Positions 8,563 to 43,307 of a stretch of DNA of 64,000 bases are shown here, one piece after another (position 1 is the first letter of the stretch; each line of letters starts with the position of its first letter). The notes under the pieces were generated by a model. That model searched no databases and was not told the origin of the DNA. It saw only the letters and a program-made list of their open reading frames with translations. Source of the stretch: Sinimarinibacterium flocculans (GTDB lineage: Bacteria; Pseudomonadota; Gammaproteobacteria; Nevskiales; Nevskiaceae); the NCBI RefSeq assembly GCF_003201205.1, contig NZ_QICN01000001.1, positions 372,001 through 436,000 of the forward strand, written 5' to 3'. Position numbers and translations under genes: made by a program.

Positions 8563-8853
8563 TCAGTCCGATGACGGCAGCGGCTTGGCTTCCTTGAGCT
8601 GCAGGGCCACGCCGCCGATCGACAGCGAGCCCTTGCCGGGCTTGGTGCACAGCAGTTCGACATTGCCGTCGGCATCGACGTAGCGCTTGCCGATCTGCGA
8701 GCCGTTGGCGAACCCGGGGTCCAGCGCGGCCGGTGTGGCCGGCTTGTCCGGGCCCATCGGCGCGCCACCGCAGTCGACGACGACGTCCTTGCCGCGCACG
8801 ACCATGACCTCGGTGTCGCAGGCGGCGCTCTTGAGCTTCATTCCGGGCTTCAT
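8563..8853 (-). CDS. Small Cys-containing protein of unknown function
   Basis: A 96-residue soluble protein I do not recognise. The ATG at 8853 is preceded by AAGGAG. Three cysteines stand out: 'AACDTEVMVVRGKDVVVDCGG' carries two 18 residues apart, and 'VELLCTKPGKG' carries a third, suggesting a metal or disulfide site in a beta-rich fold. It starts 11 bases after the aldehyde dehydrogenase stop and is surely in its operon, so it may be an accessory to that enzyme. The end lies just inside the strong terminator. Confidence 0.75.
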   Translation of the reverse strand: MKPGMKLKSAACDTEVMVVRGKDVVVDCGGAPMGPDKPATPAALDPGFANGSQIGKRYVDADGNVELLCTKPGKGSLSIGGVALQLKEAKPLPSSD

Positions 8854-8864
8854 GGCGGGTCTCC

Positions 8865-10325
8865 TTACGACGCGCGGATGCCGATGGCCTTGGTCTCGAG
8901 GAACTCCTCGATGCCTTCGACGCCCCACTCACGACCCATGCCGCTCTGCTTGTAGCCGCCGAACGGCAGGTCGCCGGTGATGCTCATGCCGCCGTTGACC
9001 GACAGCGCGCCGGCGCGGATGCGCCTGGCGATGCCCAGCGCCCGCTGGGTGTCGCCGAACACGGCGCCGCCGAGGCCGTAGATGCTGTCGTTGGCGATGC
9101 GCACGGCATCGTCATCGTTCTCGTAAGGGATCACGACCAGCACCGGCCCGAAGATCTCCTCCTGGGCGATGCGCATGTCGTTGCGCACGTCGACGAAGCA
9201 GGTCGGCTCGATGAAGAAGCCCGTGCCCTTGTCGGTGCGGACCTTGCCGCCCGCGAGCAGGCGTGCGCCTTCCCGCTGGCCGATCTCGATGTAGTTCTTC
9301 ACGCGCTCGAGCTGCTTCTTCGAGATCACCGGGCCCATGATGCAGGTCGGCTCGTCGAAGTTGCCCCACTTGTCGGCGAAGCCGGCATAGGCCATCTCGA
9401 GGATCTTGGTGACTTCCGCATAGCGCGACTTGGGCACCAGCAGGCGCGTGGGGTAGGCGCAGCCCTGGCCGGCGTGGAACACGACCATCGACGAGGCGAT
9501 GACCATCGGGAAGTTGGGGCAGTCGTCGAGCACGATGTAGGCCGACTTGCCGCCGAGTTCGAGGAACACGCGCTTCAGCGAATCCGCGCCGTTCTTCATG
9601 ATCAGCTTGCCGACTGCGGTCGAGCCGGTGAACGAGATCAGGTCGACGCGCGGGTCCCTGGTCAGCATCTCGCCGGCCATCGCCGGGTCGGCCGAGGTGA
9701 TGACGTTGAACACGCCCGGCGGGAATCCGGCCTCGGCGGCCAGTTCGCCCATGATCGCGCCCATCAGCGGCGTGTCCGGCGCCGGCTTGAGCACGACCGT
9801 GCAGCCGGCGAGCAGCGCGGCGACGACCTTGCCGATGTTCACATACAGCGGCACGTTCCACGGCGTGATTGCGCCGACGACGCCCATCGCCTCGTTGACG
9901 ACCAGGCGCTGGGTGTCGAAGCCGTACTCGTTCTTCTTGCCCAGATCCTTCTGCCAGGTGACCTTCGGGAAGCAGTCGAGCAGGCCGTCGAAGCCGTTGA
10001 GCGCACCGTCGATCTGCGCGCGGGCGGCGGCACCGATGGCCGAGCCTGCCTCGAGACGTGCGATCTGCACCAGCTTGTCGCGGTTGGCCTGCAGCAGGGC
10101 GCGGTATTTCTTGAGCAGTTCGACGCGCAGCTCGCGATTGGTCGACCAGTCGGTCTCGTCGAAGGCGCGACGCGCGGCGGCAATCGCTTCGTTGACGTCA
10201 TCGGCCGAGGCATCGGCCGCCTTGCCGACGACCTCGCCGGTCCACGGGCCGATGTTGTCGTAGGTCTTGCCGCCGGCTGCGGGACGCAGCTTGCCGTCGA
10301 TGTACAGCTTGGCCTCTGGGAGCAT
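8865..10325 (-). CDS. NAD(P)-dependent aldehyde dehydrogenase
   Basis: An ALDH-superfamily enzyme of 486 residues from the ATG at 10325; an adjacent GTG at 10328 is equally well placed behind AGGAG. Catalytic residues are Cys289 in 'AGQGCAYPTR' and the general base Glu256 in 'LELGGKSA', with the usual 33-residue spacing. 'TPWNVPLY' and 'FTGSTAVGK' mark the nucleotide-binding part. It oxidises an aldehyde to the acid, presumably one generated by the neighbouring P450 or SDR steps. It is co-directional with the genes at 10390 and 10720. Confidence 0.95.
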   Translation of the reverse strand: MLPEAKLYIDGKLRPAAGGKTYDNIGPWTGEVVGKAADASADDVNEAIAAARRAFDETDWSTNRELRVELLKKYRALLQANRDKLVQIARLEAGSAIGAAARAQIDGALNGFDGLLDCFPKVTWQKDLGKKNEYGFDTQRLVVNEAMGVVGAITPWNVPLYVNIGKVVAALLAGCTVVLKPAPDTPLMGAIMGELAAEAGFPPGVFNVITSADPAMAGEMLTRDPRVDLISFTGSTAVGKLIMKNGADSLKRVFLELGGKSAYIVLDDCPNFPMVIASSMVVFHAGQGCAYPTRLLVPKSRYAEVTKILEMAYAGFADKWGNFDEPTCIMGPVISKKQLERVKNYIEIGQREGARLLAGGKVRTDKGTGFFIEPTCFVDVRNDMRIAQEEIFGPVLVVIPYENDDDAVRIANDSIYGLGGAVFGDTQRALGIARRIRAGALSVNGGMSITGDLPFGGYKQSGMGREWGVEGIEEFLETKAIGIRAS

Positions 10326-10389
10326 CACGATCGGGTTCTCCTGAAACGGAATTCGAATGAATGGTCGTCGCTGCGGGCGGACGGGGCGC

Positions 10390-10686
10390 TCAGGCGCGCG
10401 TCGCGGTGAACGAGTAGGACCCCATCAGGCCGGCCTTGCACTTGCCTTCCATCGTGTCGCCGCTGACGGTGGCGGTGAAGACGACCTTCATCTTCAGCGG
10501 CTTGGTGACGTGGTTGGTCCACACCAGCTTGCTGCCGTCGAAGCTGGCATCGCTGATCGGCGTGCTCGTGCCGTTGCCCGTCTGCGATCCGGTGATGGTG
10601 CCGCTGCTCTCGGCGAGTTCGAGTACCGTCTTCTGCGGACCGGTCGGCGCCTTGATCGTGACGTTCCACTTGCCTGCGATGGACAT
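10390..10686 (-). CDS. Free copy of a 98-residue beta-rich domain also found fused to a P450
   Basis: A 98-residue protein with a strong GGAGAG site before its ATG. It matches, residue for residue and without gaps, the last 98 residues of the P450 at 40858-42435: by my count about 53 of 98 positions are identical, including 'PTGPQ', 'NH.TKP.KMKV' and the C-terminal 'GSYxFTAT'. The alternating strand pattern and 'GKWNVTIKAPTGPQKTVLEL' opening suggest a small lipocalin-like beta-barrel that could bind a hydrophobic ligand. No catalytic motif is seen. It lies between an aldehyde dehydrogenase and a tandem-barrel protein in the same operon. Function unknown; ligand-carrier or stabilising role is my inference. 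Confidence 0.85.
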   Translation of the reverse strand: MSIAGKWNVTIKAPTGPQKTVLELAESSGTITGSQTGNGTSTPISDASFDGSKLVWTNHVTKPLKMKVVFTATVSGDTMEGKCKAGLMGSYSFTATRA

Positions 10687-10719: not shown

Positions 10720-11481
10720 TCAACCGCGCCCGTAGGCCGAGAGGTCCCCGGCGTAGGCGATGCCGCCGGGCCAGAACTTCTCGCCGCTGACCTTGCGGAA
10801 GTAGTGCACCGTGCGCGCGACCGAACCGGACGCGGAGCGTGGCTGCATGGCGATTCCGCTGGGGCTGCGCCCGCCCGCCCTTGCGCTGAAATCGCCGATC
10901 GTCAGGTTGAGATCGTCCGTCTGCTGCGCACACAGGATCAGCTGGTCGCCCGGGCAGTAGTGGCGCGGTTCGATCTGGAACGGCGAGAGTTCGCCGCGCT
11001 TCATCGCGACGTGGCCGGGGACGTTGATCACCTCGACGCTGTGCACCTCGTCGTACCACTTGTGGTACTCGGCGGCACGGCCCGGCACGTAGTTGCCGAG
11101 GATGATGCTGACGCCGGACAGCGGCTCGTCGCGCCGCCAGTTGTCGCTGCCCTTCCAGTCCGAGTACATGCGGTAGGTGTAGATCTTCTCGGTCTCGTCG
11201 TCGGCGATCAGTCCGCGGTCGCGCGCATCGGCGATCAGCGGTCCCAGGGCCGGCACGTCGAGCGCCGGGTCGGGCAGGTCGAAGTCGTAGATGCTCAGGT
11301 AGCGCCACGGCTGCGGGATGTCGCGCATGATCTGTTCGGGCGTCACCTCGTAACGGTCGGCAGCCGTGAGACCGCGCAGGCCGGCCAGCGCCTTGCGGTG
11401 CGCGCCGTCGAACCACGACGCGTACTCGGCGTCGCGTCCGGTGGCGACGTTGTGCAGATGAATGGTCGTGTACAGGGCCAT
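10720..11481 (-). CDS. Tandem dimeric alpha/beta-barrel protein (EthD/DUF4286-like)
   Basis: A 253-residue protein made of two similar halves. The first contains 'AEYASWFDGAHRKALAGLRG', the second 'AEYHKWYDEVHSVEVINVPG', both typical of the first helix of ferredoxin-like dimeric alpha/beta-barrel proteins such as EthD. The duplication makes a pseudo-dimer in one chain. Family members assist cytochrome P450 or other oxygenase pathways or act as small isomerases, but no catalytic assignment is possible here. Its GGAGGAG lies about 24 bases before the ATG, longer than ideal, so the start is a little uncertain. It is first in its operon and divergent from the SDR at 11605. Confidence 0.7.
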   Translation of the reverse strand: MALYTTIHLHNVATGRDAEYASWFDGAHRKALAGLRGLTAADRYEVTPEQIMRDIPQPWRYLSIYDFDLPDPALDVPALGPLIADARDRGLIADDETEKIYTYRMYSDWKGSDNWRRDEPLSGVSIILGNYVPGRAAEYHKWYDEVHSVEVINVPGHVAMKRGELSPFQIEPRHYCPGDQLILCAQQTDDLNLTIGDFSARAGGRSPSGIAMQPRSASGSVARTVHYFRKVSGEKFWPGGIAYAGDLSAYGRG

Positions 11482-12480: not shown

Positions 12481-13713
12481 ATGAGCTACTTCGCCGAACT
12501 GCGCACGCACTGGCGCCCGCTCGCGGCCTCCACGATCGGGCATGGCGTCGGCATCGGCGTGATGGCCTATGTCGTCGGCACCTTCGCGCCGCATCTGCTC
12601 GCGGAGTTCGGCTGGACCCGGTCGCAGTTCGCGCTGCTGGGAACGGCCACGTTGCTGACGCTGGTGTTCCTGCCGGTGGTCGGTCGCGCAGCCGACCTGT
12701 TCGGCGTACGCCGCACGGCGCTGCTCGGCGTGATCTACATGCCGATGTCGTTCTACGCGTTGAGCACCATCGGCGGCGACTTTCGTGTGTTCATCGCCAT
12801 CGTCATCTCGCAGGTCGTGCTCGGCATCGGCACGTCGACGACGGTCTACAGCCGCCTCGTCGCCGAGCGCTTCGTACAGGCACGCGGGCTCGGCCTGGCG
12901 ATCATGGCCAGCGGTCCGGCCATCGTCGGTGCCATCGGCTCGCCATTGCTGAGCGACTACATCGACGAGCACGGCTGGCGTGCCGGGTACCGCCTGATGG
13001 CGGCATTCACGGCCTGTCTCGGCGTGCTGGCGCTTGCGCTGGTGCCGAGCGGGCAGCAGCCGGCACCCGCTGCCCGGCGCGCACGCAGTGCGCCCCGCGA
13101 CTACGCGGCGATTGCGCGCAGCCGCGCGTTCTGGCTGATTGCCGGCGGCATGTTCCTGTGCAACATCGCCGCGCCGCTGCACGGTCCTCAGCTCAAGCTG
13201 ATGCTGCTCGATGCCGGCGCACCGGCACTGGATGCCGCGCGGCTGGTGTCGCTCTACGCCATCGGCGTGATCGTCGGCCGCTTCGCCTGCGGACTGGCGC
13301 TGGACCGTTTCGCCGCGCATCGCATCGCTGCGCTGAGCATGGGCCTGCCGGCGATCGGCATGTTCCTGATCGCATCGCCGCTCGACGCCTGGTGGACCCT
13401 GTGGGTCGCGGTGTCTCTGATGGGCCTGTCGCAGGGCGCCGAAGGCGATATTGCCGGCTACCTCGTCGTCCGCCACTTCGGGGTCGGCATCTTCAGCAGC
13501 GTGCTCGGGCTCATCATCGCCGCGCTGGGTGTGGCGTCGTCGCTCGGCGCCCTGCTGCTGAGCCTGTCGCTGTCGCCGACCGACAGCTACGCGCCGTTTC
13601 TCGCTGCGAGCGCGGTGGCGGTACTCATCGGCAGTCTGTTGTTCCTGGGGCTCGGTCGCAGCGGCGAATTCGTCGACCCTGCCGCAGAGACCGCGCCCGC
13701 GTCAGCCGCCTGA
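12481..13713 (+). CDS. Major facilitator superfamily permease
   Basis: A 410-residue inner-membrane protein with about twelve hydrophobic segments and the MFS loop 'GRAADLFGVRRTALLG' after the second helix. A charged central loop ('ARRARSAPRDYAAI') separates the two six-helix bundles. It resembles oxalate/formate- or monocarboxylate-type MFS carriers in general layout. It is probably co-expressed with the SDR upstream and could import an acidic pathway substrate. It ends inside the convergent gene: the last 12 bases overlap 13702-13713. Confidence 0.85.
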   Translation: MSYFAELRTHWRPLAASTIGHGVGIGVMAYVVGTFAPHLLAEFGWTRSQFALLGTATLLTLVFLPVVGRAADLFGVRRTALLGVIYMPMSFYALSTIGGDFRVFIAIVISQVVLGIGTSTTVYSRLVAERFVQARGLGLAIMASGPAIVGAIGSPLLSDYIDEHGWRAGYRLMAAFTACLGVLALALVPSGQQPAPAARRARSAPRDYAAIARSRAFWLIAGGMFLCNIAAPLHGPQLKLMLLDAGAPALDAARLVSLYAIGVIVGRFACGLALDRFAAHRIAALSMGLPAIGMFLIASPLDAWWTLWVAVSLMGLSQGAEGDIAGYLVVRHFGVGIFSSVLGLIIAALGVASSLGALLLSLSLSPTDSYAPFLAASAVAVLIGSLLFLGLGRSGEFVDPAAETAPASAA

Positions 13714-14769
13714 GCGTCGCAGGTCGGGAATGAAGGCCGGCAATTCGCTCGACAGCCGGATGCCGGGCGCCGCGGCGCAGACGTAGGCCACGGCGTTGAC
13801 CGCGCGGTGGGCGGTGTAGCCCGGGGTCGTCGCCGCCTTGTGCTCGGGCGCGACGGTGAAGCGCAGGTCCAGTTCCAGTGGCGCATCGCCGTCGAGCTGC
13901 AGGCGCCAGCCGTCGCCGCGCAGATCCCAGTCCCGGTCGAGTTCGGTGGTCACGAACCAGTTGGCGGTGAAGCCGATCAGCGGCTTGCCATTGCGCAGAC
14001 CGTTCACGGTGGCGCGCTGGGCGGCGACGGTACCGGCCTTGACCTCGCCTGCGGCGATGCGCGTGTCGCGGCGGGCGAGGGCGACCTCGCCATGTGCCTC
14101 GATGTCGTCGAAGGCCAGGCCAACGGCCTCGGCGACCGCCTGCAGCGAAGGGCCGAAGGCGTGACGCAGATGCAGCGCGCGACCGGCGTCGGCCTGCGGA
14201 TTCGGCGCGCGGCCGAAGCCCATCAGGTCGAACAGCATCTCCGGCGAGTTGCGCGAGCGCATGTCGGCGAACTCGTGGATGTGCAGGCGGTCGAGCCGGC
14301 GCTGGATCGACAGCAGCGCCAGCGGCACCGCCTCGGTGATGAAACCCGGGCTGCTGCCGGTGCTGTGGATCGATGCGCCGCCCCGCGTGCAGGCGGCGTC
14401 GATGCGTTCGCGCAACGCCGGATCCATGCGTGCCGGCAGGTGGAACTCGGTGCGCGTCGTGACGACGTTGATGCCGGCGTCGAGCAGGCGGCACAGGTCG
14501 TCGGCTTCGGTGCGTTGCGGCATGTAGAGCACGCAGTCCGGCTCGAGCGCGAGGATGTCGTCGATGCTGCGCGTCGCTTTCACGCCGACGGGCGGCAGGC
14601 CGCACAGCTCGCCGGCATCGCGGCCGGCCTTGGCATCGGCGTAGACGTAGAGGCCGACCAGTTCCAGCGTGGGGTGTTCGATGACGGCGCGCAGCGAGCG
14701 CGTGCCGATGTTGCCGGTGGCCCATTGCACGACACGCAGAACGCGGTCGCCGGTGCGGGTGCTGCTCAT
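13702..14769 (-). CDS. DapB-like NAD(P)-dependent dehydrogenase
   Basis: A 355-residue protein with a dihydrodipicolinate-reductase-like N-terminal Rossmann domain: 'VVQWATGNIGTRSLRAVIEH' resembles the nucleotide-binding turn of 2,4-diaminopentanoate dehydrogenase-like proteins. Members of this group with 'GSSPGFITE' in the middle are common in actinobacterial and proteobacterial lipid or steroid gene clusters, but their substrates are mostly unknown. The ATG at 14769 has GAGGAG. It is a single-gene unit, convergent with the MFS gene and divergent from the HyuB operon. Confidence 0.8.
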   Translation of the reverse strand: MSSTRTGDRVLRVVQWATGNIGTRSLRAVIEHPTLELVGLYVYADAKAGRDAGELCGLPPVGVKATRSIDDILALEPDCVLYMPQRTEADDLCRLLDAGINVVTTRTEFHLPARMDPALRERIDAACTRGGASIHSTGSSPGFITEAVPLALLSIQRRLDRLHIHEFADMRSRNSPEMLFDLMGFGRAPNPQADAGRALHLRHAFGPSLQAVAEAVGLAFDDIEAHGEVALARRDTRIAAGEVKAGTVAAQRATVNGLRNGKPLIGFTANWFVTTELDRDWDLRGDGWRLQLDGDAPLELDLRFTVAPEHKAATTPGYTAHRAVNAVAYVCAAAPGIRLSSELPAFIPDLRRSGG

Positions 14770-40857: not shown

Positions 40858-42435
40858 TTACGCCTTGGTCGCAGTGAAAGGATAGGAACCCATGAAGCCG
40901 GCCTTGGCCTTGCCGGTGATCGTGTTGCCGCTCAGTTCGCCCTTGAACTCGACCTTCATCTTCATCGGCTTGGTGATGTGGTTGCACCAGTAGATCGCGT
41001 TGCCGTCCTTCTTGAAATCGGCGATCGGCGAGGTCGAACCCTGTCCGGTCTGCGCACCGGTGATCTTGTCGCCGCTGCGTTCGAGCACCAGCGTCGCCGG
41101 CTGTGGGCCGGTCGGCCCCTTCACGACGACGTTCCAGGTGCCTTCCAACGTCACTTCCGCCGATGCCGCTGCGGCAGGTGCCGGCGCCGGCGCCGGTTCG
41201 GCGGCCTTGGGCACGCTGTAGGTTGCGTTCTTCGGCTTGGAGCCGATCCACGCCGGCAGGCTGTCCCAGCCGCGTACCGACGACGTCGACGACAGCACCG
41301 CGTGATCGAGGTCCACCTCCCAGTCCGGGAAGCGCTTGAGAATCTCCTCCAGCGCGACACGGCCTTCGAGGCGCGCCAGCGGCGCACCGATGCAGACGTG
41401 GATGCCCTGACCGAAGGTCATGTGGGGGCGCGCCTCGCGATGGATGTTGAAGGTGTCGCCGTTGACGAAGCGGCGCTCGTCGCGATTGCCGGCGGCGACG
41501 AGCAGCATCATCACCGCGCCCTTGGGCACTTTCTTGCCGTGCAGCTCGATGTCGCGCATCACCTCACGGGCGAGGAACGGCCCGGGCGGTTCGAAGCGCA
41601 GCACTTCCTCGACCGTCTGCGGCACGAGGGCGAGGTTTTTCGCGACGTCGCGGCGCTGGTCGGGGTGCTCGGACAACGTCTTGCCCATCCAGCCGATCAG
41701 GCGGTTGGTGGTCTCGTTGCCGGCACCGGCGATGACGTTGACGATGTTGGTGATCTCGTCGCGCGTGAGCCTGCGGGTTTCGCCGGTCGGGTCCTTGAAC
41801 TCGGCCTGCAGCAGCTCCGTCATCATGTCGTCCGACGGGTTCTTCTCGCGCCAGGCGATGTACTCGTCGAAGCCCGACAGCGCCTCATCCTGCAGCTTCT
41901 TGTTGTGCTCGATATCGAGCGGCTTGCCGGCCTCGGTGCGGATGCGGTCGTCCACCGACTGGCGGATCGCCTCCTGATCCTTCTCGGGAATGCCGAGCAG
42001 CATGCTGACGGCGCGCATCGGCATTTCTGCGCCGAGGTTGGTGATGAAGTCGAAGCGGTCGCCGCCGACCAGCGGATCGAGGCTGCGCGCACACAGCTTG
42101 CGGATGTCCGCCTCGACGGCGGCCATGCGCTTGGGCGTGATGATGCGCTGCATCAGCGCGCGATAGGCGGTGTGCTTGGGCGGGTCCTGGTGGATGAACA
42201 CCGAGTCCGGCATCACCGACTTGGCCTTGATGAACTCGAGGATGTCGCCGTGGCGCGAGCTGAACAGTTCCTTGTCGCGCAGCGTGGATTCGATGTCGGC
42301 GAAGTGGCTCACCGCGTAGAAGTCGTGCTCTTCGTTGTAGTACAGCGGCGCTTCTTCGCGGAGCCGCTTGTACGTCGGATAGGGATTCTTGGTGAGCTCG
42401 GTGTTGTACGGATCCCAGGAAAGCTCTGTGCTCAT
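40858..42435 (-). CDS. Cytochrome P450 with a C-terminal fused 98-residue beta-rich domain
   Basis: A 525-residue protein. Residues 1 to about 408 are a standard soluble P450: I-helix '[11 protein letters not shown]', ExxR in '[10 protein letters not shown]', heme loop '[17 protein letters not shown]' with Cys348 as ligand. An Ala/Pro linker ('[15 protein letters not shown]') joins residues 428-525, which align ungapped with the free protein at 10390-10686. P450s of this class normally end near residue 410, so the extension is a true fusion and not a known redox domain: it has no Cys, flavin or Fe-S motif. The start ATG 42435 has AAGGTGGAG. Substrate unknown; the fused part may present or retain a hydrophobic ligand. 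Confidence 0.92.
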
Positions 42436-42527: not shown

Positions 42528-42549
42528 TAATGTACACGCATGTGCATTA
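42528..42549. promoter_or_regulatory. 22-bp near-palindrome upstream of the P450 operon
   Basis: TAATGTACACGCATGTGCATTA is symmetrical at 18 of 22 positions (TAATG...CATTA arms). It lies about 93 bases before the P450 ATG, in the promoter region of the P450-ferredoxin-TetR unit. Size and symmetry suit a TetR dimer. Confidence 0.55.
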
Positions 42550-42675: not shown

Positions 42676-42906
42676 ATGGAGCAGGGCGCAGTTTTCAAGA
42701 GCAATCGCAGTCAGGCCATCCGGTTGCCGAAAGCGGCGGCGCTGCCCGAGGACGTGAAGCGCGTGGATGTCGTGTCCATCGGGCGCACGCGCGTCATCGC
42801 CCCGGCCGGAGAGGCATGGGACAGCTGGTTTGATGGTGCCGGCGTCAGCGCCGATTTCATGGCAGAGCGAGAGCAAGCGGCGGAGCAGGAGCGCGAGACG
42901 CTTTGA
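42676..42906 (+). CDS. vapB: VapB-type antitoxin
   Basis: A 76-residue antitoxin. The N-terminus 'MEQGAVFKSNRSQAIRLPKA' is the SpoVT/AbrB-type DNA-binding strand of VapB proteins, and the acidic C-terminus ('MAEREQAAEQERETL') wraps the toxin. I choose the ATG at 42676 because family members begin with this block; an ATG at 42661 would add 'MWTCQ'. The stop overlaps the toxin start (TGATG), the normal coupling in these modules. Confidence 0.93.
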   Translation: MEQGAVFKSNRSQAIRLPKAAALPEDVKRVDVVSIGRTRVIAPAGEAWDSWFDGAGVSADFMAEREQAAEQERETL

Positions 42907-43307
42907 TGCTGCGCTACATGCTCGATACGAACCTGTGCATTGGCGTCGTCCGGGACAAGCCGACGGCAGCGCGTGCCGCGTTCAAGCGTCACCACGCGCA
43001 GATGTGCATCAGCTCGATCACCGTGATGGAGCTGTTGTACGGGGTGGAGCGGTCCGCGCAGCCGGAACGAAATCTGGAGGAAGTGGAGGGCTTCATCGCG
43101 CGGCTGGAGGTCTTGGACTACGACACACCGGCGGCAGCCCATACGGCCCAGATTCGGGCAGAACTCAGAAAGGCGGGCATGCAGATCGGCCCCTACGACC
43201 AGATGATCGCTGGCCATGCACGGTCGCGCGGACTGGTGGTGGTCACCAACAACATGCGCGAGTTTCAGCGCGTTGCCGGCCTTCGCTGCGAAGACTGGCT
43301 TGCATGA
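42906..43307 (+). CDS. vapC: VapC-type PIN-domain ribonuclease toxin
   Basis: A 133-residue PIN-domain toxin with the acidic metal site intact: Asp8 in 'MLDTNLCIGV', Glu42 in 'VMELLYGVE' and Asp98 in 'GPYDQMIAGHA'. VapC toxins cleave tRNA or rRNA when the antitoxin is degraded. The gene overlaps vapB by one base. GC content of the stretch I counted (57%) is lower than that of neighbouring metabolic genes, consistent with acquisition. Confidence 0.95.
   Translation: MLRYMLDTNLCIGVVRDKPTAARAAFKRHHAQMCISSITVMELLYGVERSAQPERNLEEVEGFIARLEVLDYDTPAAAHTAQIRAELRKAGMQIGPYDQMIAGHARSRGLVVVTNNMREFQRVAGLRCEDWLA

Follow-up and report, generated by a model that had tools for sequence, protein, structure and literature searches.

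The window, by which we mean the whole 64,000-nucleotide stretch of the Sinimarinibacterium flocculans genome analysed here, holds two copies of a 98-residue domain, one encoded as a free protein and the other forming the C-terminus of a cytochrome P450 (Table 1). The length given for the fused protein takes the likely ATG as the start; among the listed open reading frames (ORFs), the longest covers 559 residues and begins with GTG at position 42537. BLASTP aligns the free protein with residues 428-525 of the P450 without any gap, 53 of the 98 positions being identical and 70 of 98 similar, exactly as in the initial annotation, which had counted about 53 identities in an ungapped match. The pairwise score (119 bits, E = 1e-37) is far beyond chance. 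The linker between the P450 and its copy of the domain belongs to a 37-residue stretch with an Ala plus Pro content of 49%.

Table 1. Genes and features around the two copies of the domain (positions in the window) and the six copies found in the whole genome (contig:position).
Feature	Location	Strand	Basis or remark
96-aa ORF ending the same gene run as the free copy	8563..8853	minus	no Pfam match at 1e-3
Aldehyde dehydrogenase gene downstream of the free domain gene	8865..10328	minus	Pfam and sequence clusters
Free copy of the domain	10390..10686	minus	98 aa, ATG start; AF2 pLDDT 93.6, 8 strands
253-aa ORF upstream of the free domain gene	10720..11481	minus	no Pfam match at 1e-3
2Fe-2S ferredoxin gene directly downstream of the fused P450	40532..40852	minus	PF00111, 2.9e-10
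P450 ORF with the domain at its C-terminus	40858-42435	minus	525 aa from likely ATG start
Domain copy, P450 residues 428-525	40861..41154	minus	BLASTP; strands at 432-524 in fusion model
Ala/Pro-rich linker, residues 401-427	41155..41235	minus	pLDDT <50 at 400-426
Cytochrome P450 part of the fusion	41236..42435	minus	Pfam PF00067, 1.7e-26
Genome copy 1: free protein	C1:382393		
Genome copy 2: window P450	C1:412864		
Genome copy 3: second P450, 522 aa	C4:80781		
Genome copy 4: third P450, 568 aa, ~14 kb before the window	C1:357834		
Genome copy 5: C-terminus of molybdopterin hydroxylase large subunit	C4:59032		MoCoBD, Ald_Xan_dh_C
Genome copy 6: N-terminus of 758-aa protein with PKD domain	C4:8696		

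The gene neighbourhoods bear out the earlier remark that both copies sit with catabolic oxidoreductases, since the gene after the free copy encodes an aldehyde dehydrogenase and the one after the fused P450 a 2Fe-2S ferredoxin, each on the same strand. Relatives of this aldehyde dehydrogenase (84-85% identical) adjoin free copies in loci L059, L076 and L077, and distant ones (merged cluster c17) are adjacent to, or one gene off, the fused P450s of L099, L101 and L104. In L076 and L077 the free copy has relatives of the 253-aa ORF (c22, 79-80% identical) close by; relatives of the 96-aa ORF (c16, 67-76% identical) are found near the free copies of these two loci and near the fused P450 of L070. 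The window encodes another P450 (22610-23890, plus strand), which does not carry the domain. Adjoining the fused P450 are two ORFs of 76 and 133 aa (42676-43307, plus strand) that have, from their sequences, the look of a VapB/VapC-type toxin-antitoxin pair.

Natural P450 fusions with ferredoxin, flavodoxin or reductase domains have these, as here, at the C-terminus and on a linker. A role of the domain as a redox accessory of the P450, docking for or carrying out electron transfer, would also agree with the ferredoxin gene that follows the fused P450 in the window and whose relatives (cluster c3) occupy the equivalent position in six related loci (L042, L045, L048, L065, L068, L075). Unlike those fusions, the domain has no cofactor motif and is encountered on enzymes other than P450s, hydrolases and DJ-1 proteins among them, and as a free neighbour gene. 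A 55-row alignment of the family shows no conserved Cys or His column, and Pfam finds PF00067 alone in the fused protein, with no Fe-S or flavin domain of the kind that defines self-sufficient P450 fusions; the previous claim that the domain lacks a redox motif was therefore right. The domain is not an electron carrier, and we rejected the redox-partner explanation as highly improbable because the motif is absent and the partners are wrong.

The AF2 model of the free protein, built from 27 alignment rows, is an eight-stranded antiparallel barrel (pLDDT 93.6, pTM 0.85). The predicted strands (residues 5-13, 16-27, 30-37, 40-49, 53-60, 66-75, 78-85 and 90-97) follow one another in series (+1 topology), without any helix of four or more residues. 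Eight strands appear again at residues 432-524 in the model of the fusion (19 rows, pLDDT 79.3), where the linker is predicted to be disordered, residues 400-426 having a pLDDT below 50. A Foldseek search against the PDB returned 1,222 matches at E<=10, three of them at E<=0.001. The 50 matches listed include a tardigrade SAHS protein (E 4.9e-4), a group-13 allergen, Cap15, many FABPs and designed barrels, and most have a TM-score below 0.65. The highest TM-scores among these 50 belong to two kinds of barrel of the same size class as the domain, the cyclic-dinucleotide receptor Cap15 (PDB 7n35, 0.68/0.64) and the designed mFAP-type barrels 6czg and 6czi (0.72-0.75/0.66; 0.75/0.66 for 6czg). 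Both differ from it in sequence (14-15% identity); moreover, the designed barrels are artificial and, judged by their neighbours, the loci encoding the domain are not defence loci. A very close predicted structure is that of the Caudovirales protein A0A6J5MD96 (BFVD, uncultured phage; TM-score 0.90/0.82, rmsd 1.5), which is listed as uncharacterised and shares 20% identity with the domain. Phage records and viral contigs yielded no sequence relative of the domain at the settings used.

Searched alone, the domain has no match in Pfam, NCBIfam or PHROGs, even at E<=10. Against PDB sequences, the single sequence gave five weak matches (E of at least 0.56), mostly antibody light chains, and the profile search gave none, so that the profile match to a known unrelated family that would have spoken against the proposal did not appear in any of these four collections; nor was the domain significantly related in sequence to any known lipocalin or FABP in Pfam or the PDB profile search. 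A literature search covering mostly papers available without subscription found none on the domain, as judged by titles and the first lines of abstracts. The domain is an uncatalogued family, with no model in Pfam, NCBIfam or PHROGs, that combines a predicted fold of a known kind with what would be an unusual role.

Two calycin signatures are present in the sequence. G5-x-W7, in strand 1, is invariant in all 55 rows of alignment A3, and strand 8 has K or R at residue 97 in all 54 rows with a letter there. (A3 retains 55 rows of 66 distinct stretches, omitting the fragments of G050 and G037:C24, the broken Steroidobacter copy L108, the weak L080-L083 and near-identical rows; L159, L111 and L114 have no gene-called domain.) The SCR2 motif, which sits at the F-G turn of calycins, is absent, the consensus of residues 75-78 being D-G-D-T. 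A paper on Tp0751 gives G-x-W (SCR1) and a basic residue in strand H (SCR3) as calycin features (PMC5040251); a second paper also gives G-x-W, names the TDY triplet of SCR2 and describes FABPs (iLBP) as having ten strands and two helices (PMC3493614). The AF2 model differs from FABPs in its eight strands and lack of helices. The domain resembles calycins (lipocalins, FABPs, avidins) in the serial order of its eight predicted antiparallel strands, its G-x-W in strand 1 and the basic residue in its last strand, whereas its length of only 98 aa, its lack of a C-terminal helix, a lid and an SCR2-type motif, and its fusion to enzymes set it apart; it is at most an outlier calycin. The lipocalin-like barrel for which a structure prediction had been suggested is thus what the model, the Foldseek matches to FABPs, Cap15 and designed barrels, and the two signatures point to.

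Loops 1-2, 3-4, 5-6 and 7-8 lie together at one end of the barrel, which we take to correspond to the open end of lipocalins; this assignment, like that of inward-facing positions, follows from strand order and not from coordinates. The loops of this end are better conserved than the others in alignment A4 (3.24 vs 2.36 bits, p 3e-4), the same contrast being weak in the broad alignment A3 (2.57 vs 2.08 bits, p = 0.046). They carry on average 4.5 K/R and 1.1 D/E per row, compared with 1.4 and 3.4 at the other end. In our reading of the alignment, inward positions near the conserved end (18, 20, 35, 37, 58, 85) tend to be small or polar, and those near the opposite end are mostly large and hydrophobic. 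Most outward positions of the strands are, again in our reading, polar and variable; they include no conserved hydrophobic patch, although K82 and K84 are conserved.

The genome to which the window belongs (4.40 Mb) contains six copies of the domain (Table 1), arranged as two triplets spanning 55 and 72 kb. In a rough test that ignored contig breaks, two triplets within 73 kb arose in 3 of 200,000 random placements. Genes for Fe-S, FAD and CoxG proteins adjoin the molybdopterin hydroxylase, and the PKD protein of 758 aa may be a hydrolase, as read from a G-x-S-x-G stretch. A seventh match (C7:191995, E 0.31), which covers 47 query residues only and is absent from the profile search, was dismissed as chance. 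Another genome, G024, has six copies inside 158 kb.

Among 58 genomes of the same bacterial family, 12 match the domain, in 44 places. Three of these places are fragments; we assigned the remaining 41 full copies to types from gene calls and sequence clusters, applying Pfam to representatives only. Fourteen are on P450s (12 in clade c1 and two in clade c5), nine on large subunits of molybdenum hydroxylases and seven on other or putative enzymes (four on the PKD protein and one each on a DapB/DAP_DH-like dehydrogenase, an Abhydrolase_6 and an Abhydrolase_3 protein); 11 are free, including one 163-aa ORF. At the level of the order, 11 of 73 genomes match, all from the window's own family, and none of the 23 genomes from the other families does. 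The class sample gave 4 matching genomes out of 370, the own genome included and the other three weak (E 1e-7 to 7e-6), and the phylum sample 36 of 397, again with the own genome included, the 35 others having one copy each. Since 28 of these 35 matches fall within open frames no longer than 152 codons, these are probably free copies. Relatives by name (24 loci) include Solimonas, Stenotrophobium, Hydrocarboniphaga, Nevskia, Halieaceae, Ketobacter, Aestuariicella and Demequina, and a search with five family members found the domain in nine plasmid records from Sphingomonas, Novosphingobium, Sulfitobacter, Streptantibioticus, Streptomyces and Paenibacillus. The domain is therefore present in at least three phyla.

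The grouping of copies along the chromosome bears on the main rival to ligand binding, namely that the domain serves enzyme assembly, its conserved basic end docking onto an acidic partner (a ferredoxin, a subunit or another copy) to build a metabolon. The presence of several domain-carrying proteins per region, as in the triplets of the own genome and in G024, would agree with this, as would the flexible tether and the conserved basic end itself; engineered self-assembling tags improve P450-reductase coupling (PMC4930934). Such docking is harder to reconcile with outward strand faces that are mostly polar and variable and lack a conserved hydrophobic patch, K82 and K84 notwithstanding, and with a tree in which domain lineages sort mostly by partner enzyme. 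In addition, the 35 other genomes of the phylum sample, each with a single copy, offer nothing alike to assemble with, and docking to a ferredoxin would leave hydrolases and DJ-1 proteins unexplained. We regard assembly as a tentative possibility.

The relation between fused and free forms is clearest in P450 clade c5, for which the nearest PDB entry is camphor 5-monooxygenase. All seven c5 genes that the family yielded, 75-100% identical to the query, are accompanied by the domain: it is fused in two, and in the other five it has a gene of its own, which lies 70-140 bases downstream in the same orientation; none of 23 more distant homologues has it within 5 kb. In the five split loci the P450 stop codon precedes the start of the domain gene, and a purine-rich stretch lies before its ATG. 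In the tree, a single clade with support 100/98 unites the eight domains of the c5 type: two are fused, five are split, and the eighth, also split, comes from the metagenome contig L101. With the same domain fused in two loci and a neighbour gene in five, the free and fused forms look interchangeable, and the proposal that the domain works with an oxygenase either in cis or in trans is supported. In clade c1 the domain is fused to 12 of 14 P450s, vs none of 11 more distant homologues.

These data also bear on the idea that the barrel is a folding or solubility appendage, which would merely stabilise its enzyme or keep it soluble near a hydrophobic substrate. Attachment to many unrelated enzymes, the linker predicted to be disordered in the one fusion modelled and the existence of two c1-clade P450s that do without the domain are what such an appendage might look like. 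A stabiliser acting in cis would nevertheless be lost in the five loci where the domain is a separate gene beside the same P450, and the conserved end and invariant residues suggest a site; we thus consider this explanation quite unlikely.

Free copies lie near P450s elsewhere too. The Nevskia locus L097, at the same place as L059, has a CYP150-type P450 that lacks the domain; next come a ferredoxin gene and then the free domain gene. In Demequina, the free gene belongs to a run with an Lcp-like oxygenase, an aldehyde dehydrogenase and a CYP268-like P450, together with what read as a 69-aa ferredoxin-like ORF and a 404-aa putative reductase. On a Novosphingobium plasmid the gene next to the domain is a P450. 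Partner and neighbour P450s are closest in the PDB to CYP101, CYP150A6 and CYP268A2/CYP125/CYP124, and the nearest entries of the fused P450 of the window point to no substrate. Within the family, genomes that match the domain have more P450 matches (mean 11.8, n=12, including G050, which has fragments only) than those that do not (mean 4.6, n=46; p = 7.7e-6), a difference that gives weak and confounded support, because P450-rich genomes may be generally catabolic and related to one another.

The genome survey that had been proposed thus gives an association with oxygenases that is strong but limited by lineage. Other carriers of the domain are molybdenum hydroxylases, alpha/beta hydrolases, DJ-1/PfpI proteins and a DapB-like dehydrogenase. 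In two Sulfitobacter and two Paenibacillus records, the matching gene bears the annotation DJ-1/PfpI, Pfam agreeing for one, and in Streptomyces KN37 a DJ-1/PfpI gene comes just before the free domain gene. In 20 loci of the phylum sample, what most often adjoins the free gene is an M16 peptidase gene (cluster c1019; Pfam on one member), which lies directly upstream in nine. Five loci share another neighbourhood, with a septation-protein gene, and in four of these an RPE65-type oxygenase gene (Pfam on one member) is two or three genes off; two loci are near GcpE, three have no common pattern and one has no called domain gene. With many free copies beside M16 peptidase or other genes, the link to oxygenases is not universal, and because neighbours and partners differ so widely, the domain looks like an old, scattered module that was joined repeatedly to different enzymes. 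The window itself encodes a DapB/DAP_DH-like protein without the domain (13702-14769, minus strand); its relative in G024 (L063:8089-9525, 33% identical) carries the domain at its C-terminus.

All copies belong to one homologous family, which occurs fused to and as a neighbour gene of the same P450 clade, and on unrelated enzymes that cluster in the same regions. We infer that the domain binds a ligand, and propose with moderate confidence that it is a minimal calycin-like accessory barrel of catabolic enzymes, especially P450s, that binds a ligand of their pathway in cis or in trans. We judged ligand binding the likeliest reading given the lack of a redox motif, the unrelated partners, the fused and free forms with the same P450 and the predicted barrel with its basic end. 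The domain would be held to its enzyme by the disordered Ala/Pro-rich linker, or be encoded by the next gene and act in trans; its conserved basic end, open by strand order, would bind a pathway ligand that is hydrophobic and probably acidic; and the domain may then raise the local concentration of this ligand at the attached enzyme, or hand it over or take it away. That the ligand is isoprenoid-like is a guess, prompted by the nearest PDB entries of the partner or neighbour P450s and by RPE65, Lcp-type and GcpE genes near some free copies; M16 peptidase and septation-protein genes are near others. Ligand binding has points against it: the predicted barrel is of small size and lacks a lid helix, two c1-clade P450s do without the domain, and no single ligand explains the DapB-like, DJ-1/PfpI and M16 contexts together. 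A more far-reaching version, in which the barrel is a substrate carrier common to a whole route, with the P450, molybdenum hydroxylase, dehydrogenase and hydrolase each bearing a tethered copy and the free copy shuttling a hydrophobic intermediate, appears unlikely to us; it would be the calycin counterpart of a swinging carrier domain.

A domain that holds or hands over substrate would be an unusual partner for a P450. If it binds the substrate, it would offer P450s and other enzymes a new supply route for hydrophobic compounds, of use in biocatalysis. A non-redox calycin-like domain on P450s, together with its natural split versions, makes a ready experiment on what an accessory domain contributes to oxygenase catalysis. 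It would also name a family that the searched libraries missed despite its reach of at least three phyla.

Some matches at the margin of the family are worth recording. The three fragments, L055 and L056 (both in G050) and L050 (G037:C24), cover 39-47 profile positions and look as if they were decaying copies from the same bacterial family; in L055 the c3 ferredoxin gene is still present beside the fragment. Two methyltransferase proteins (L080:1444-2325 and L082:1426-2256, minus strand) show a weak, partial profile match at their C-termini (E 1e-7 and 9e-6).
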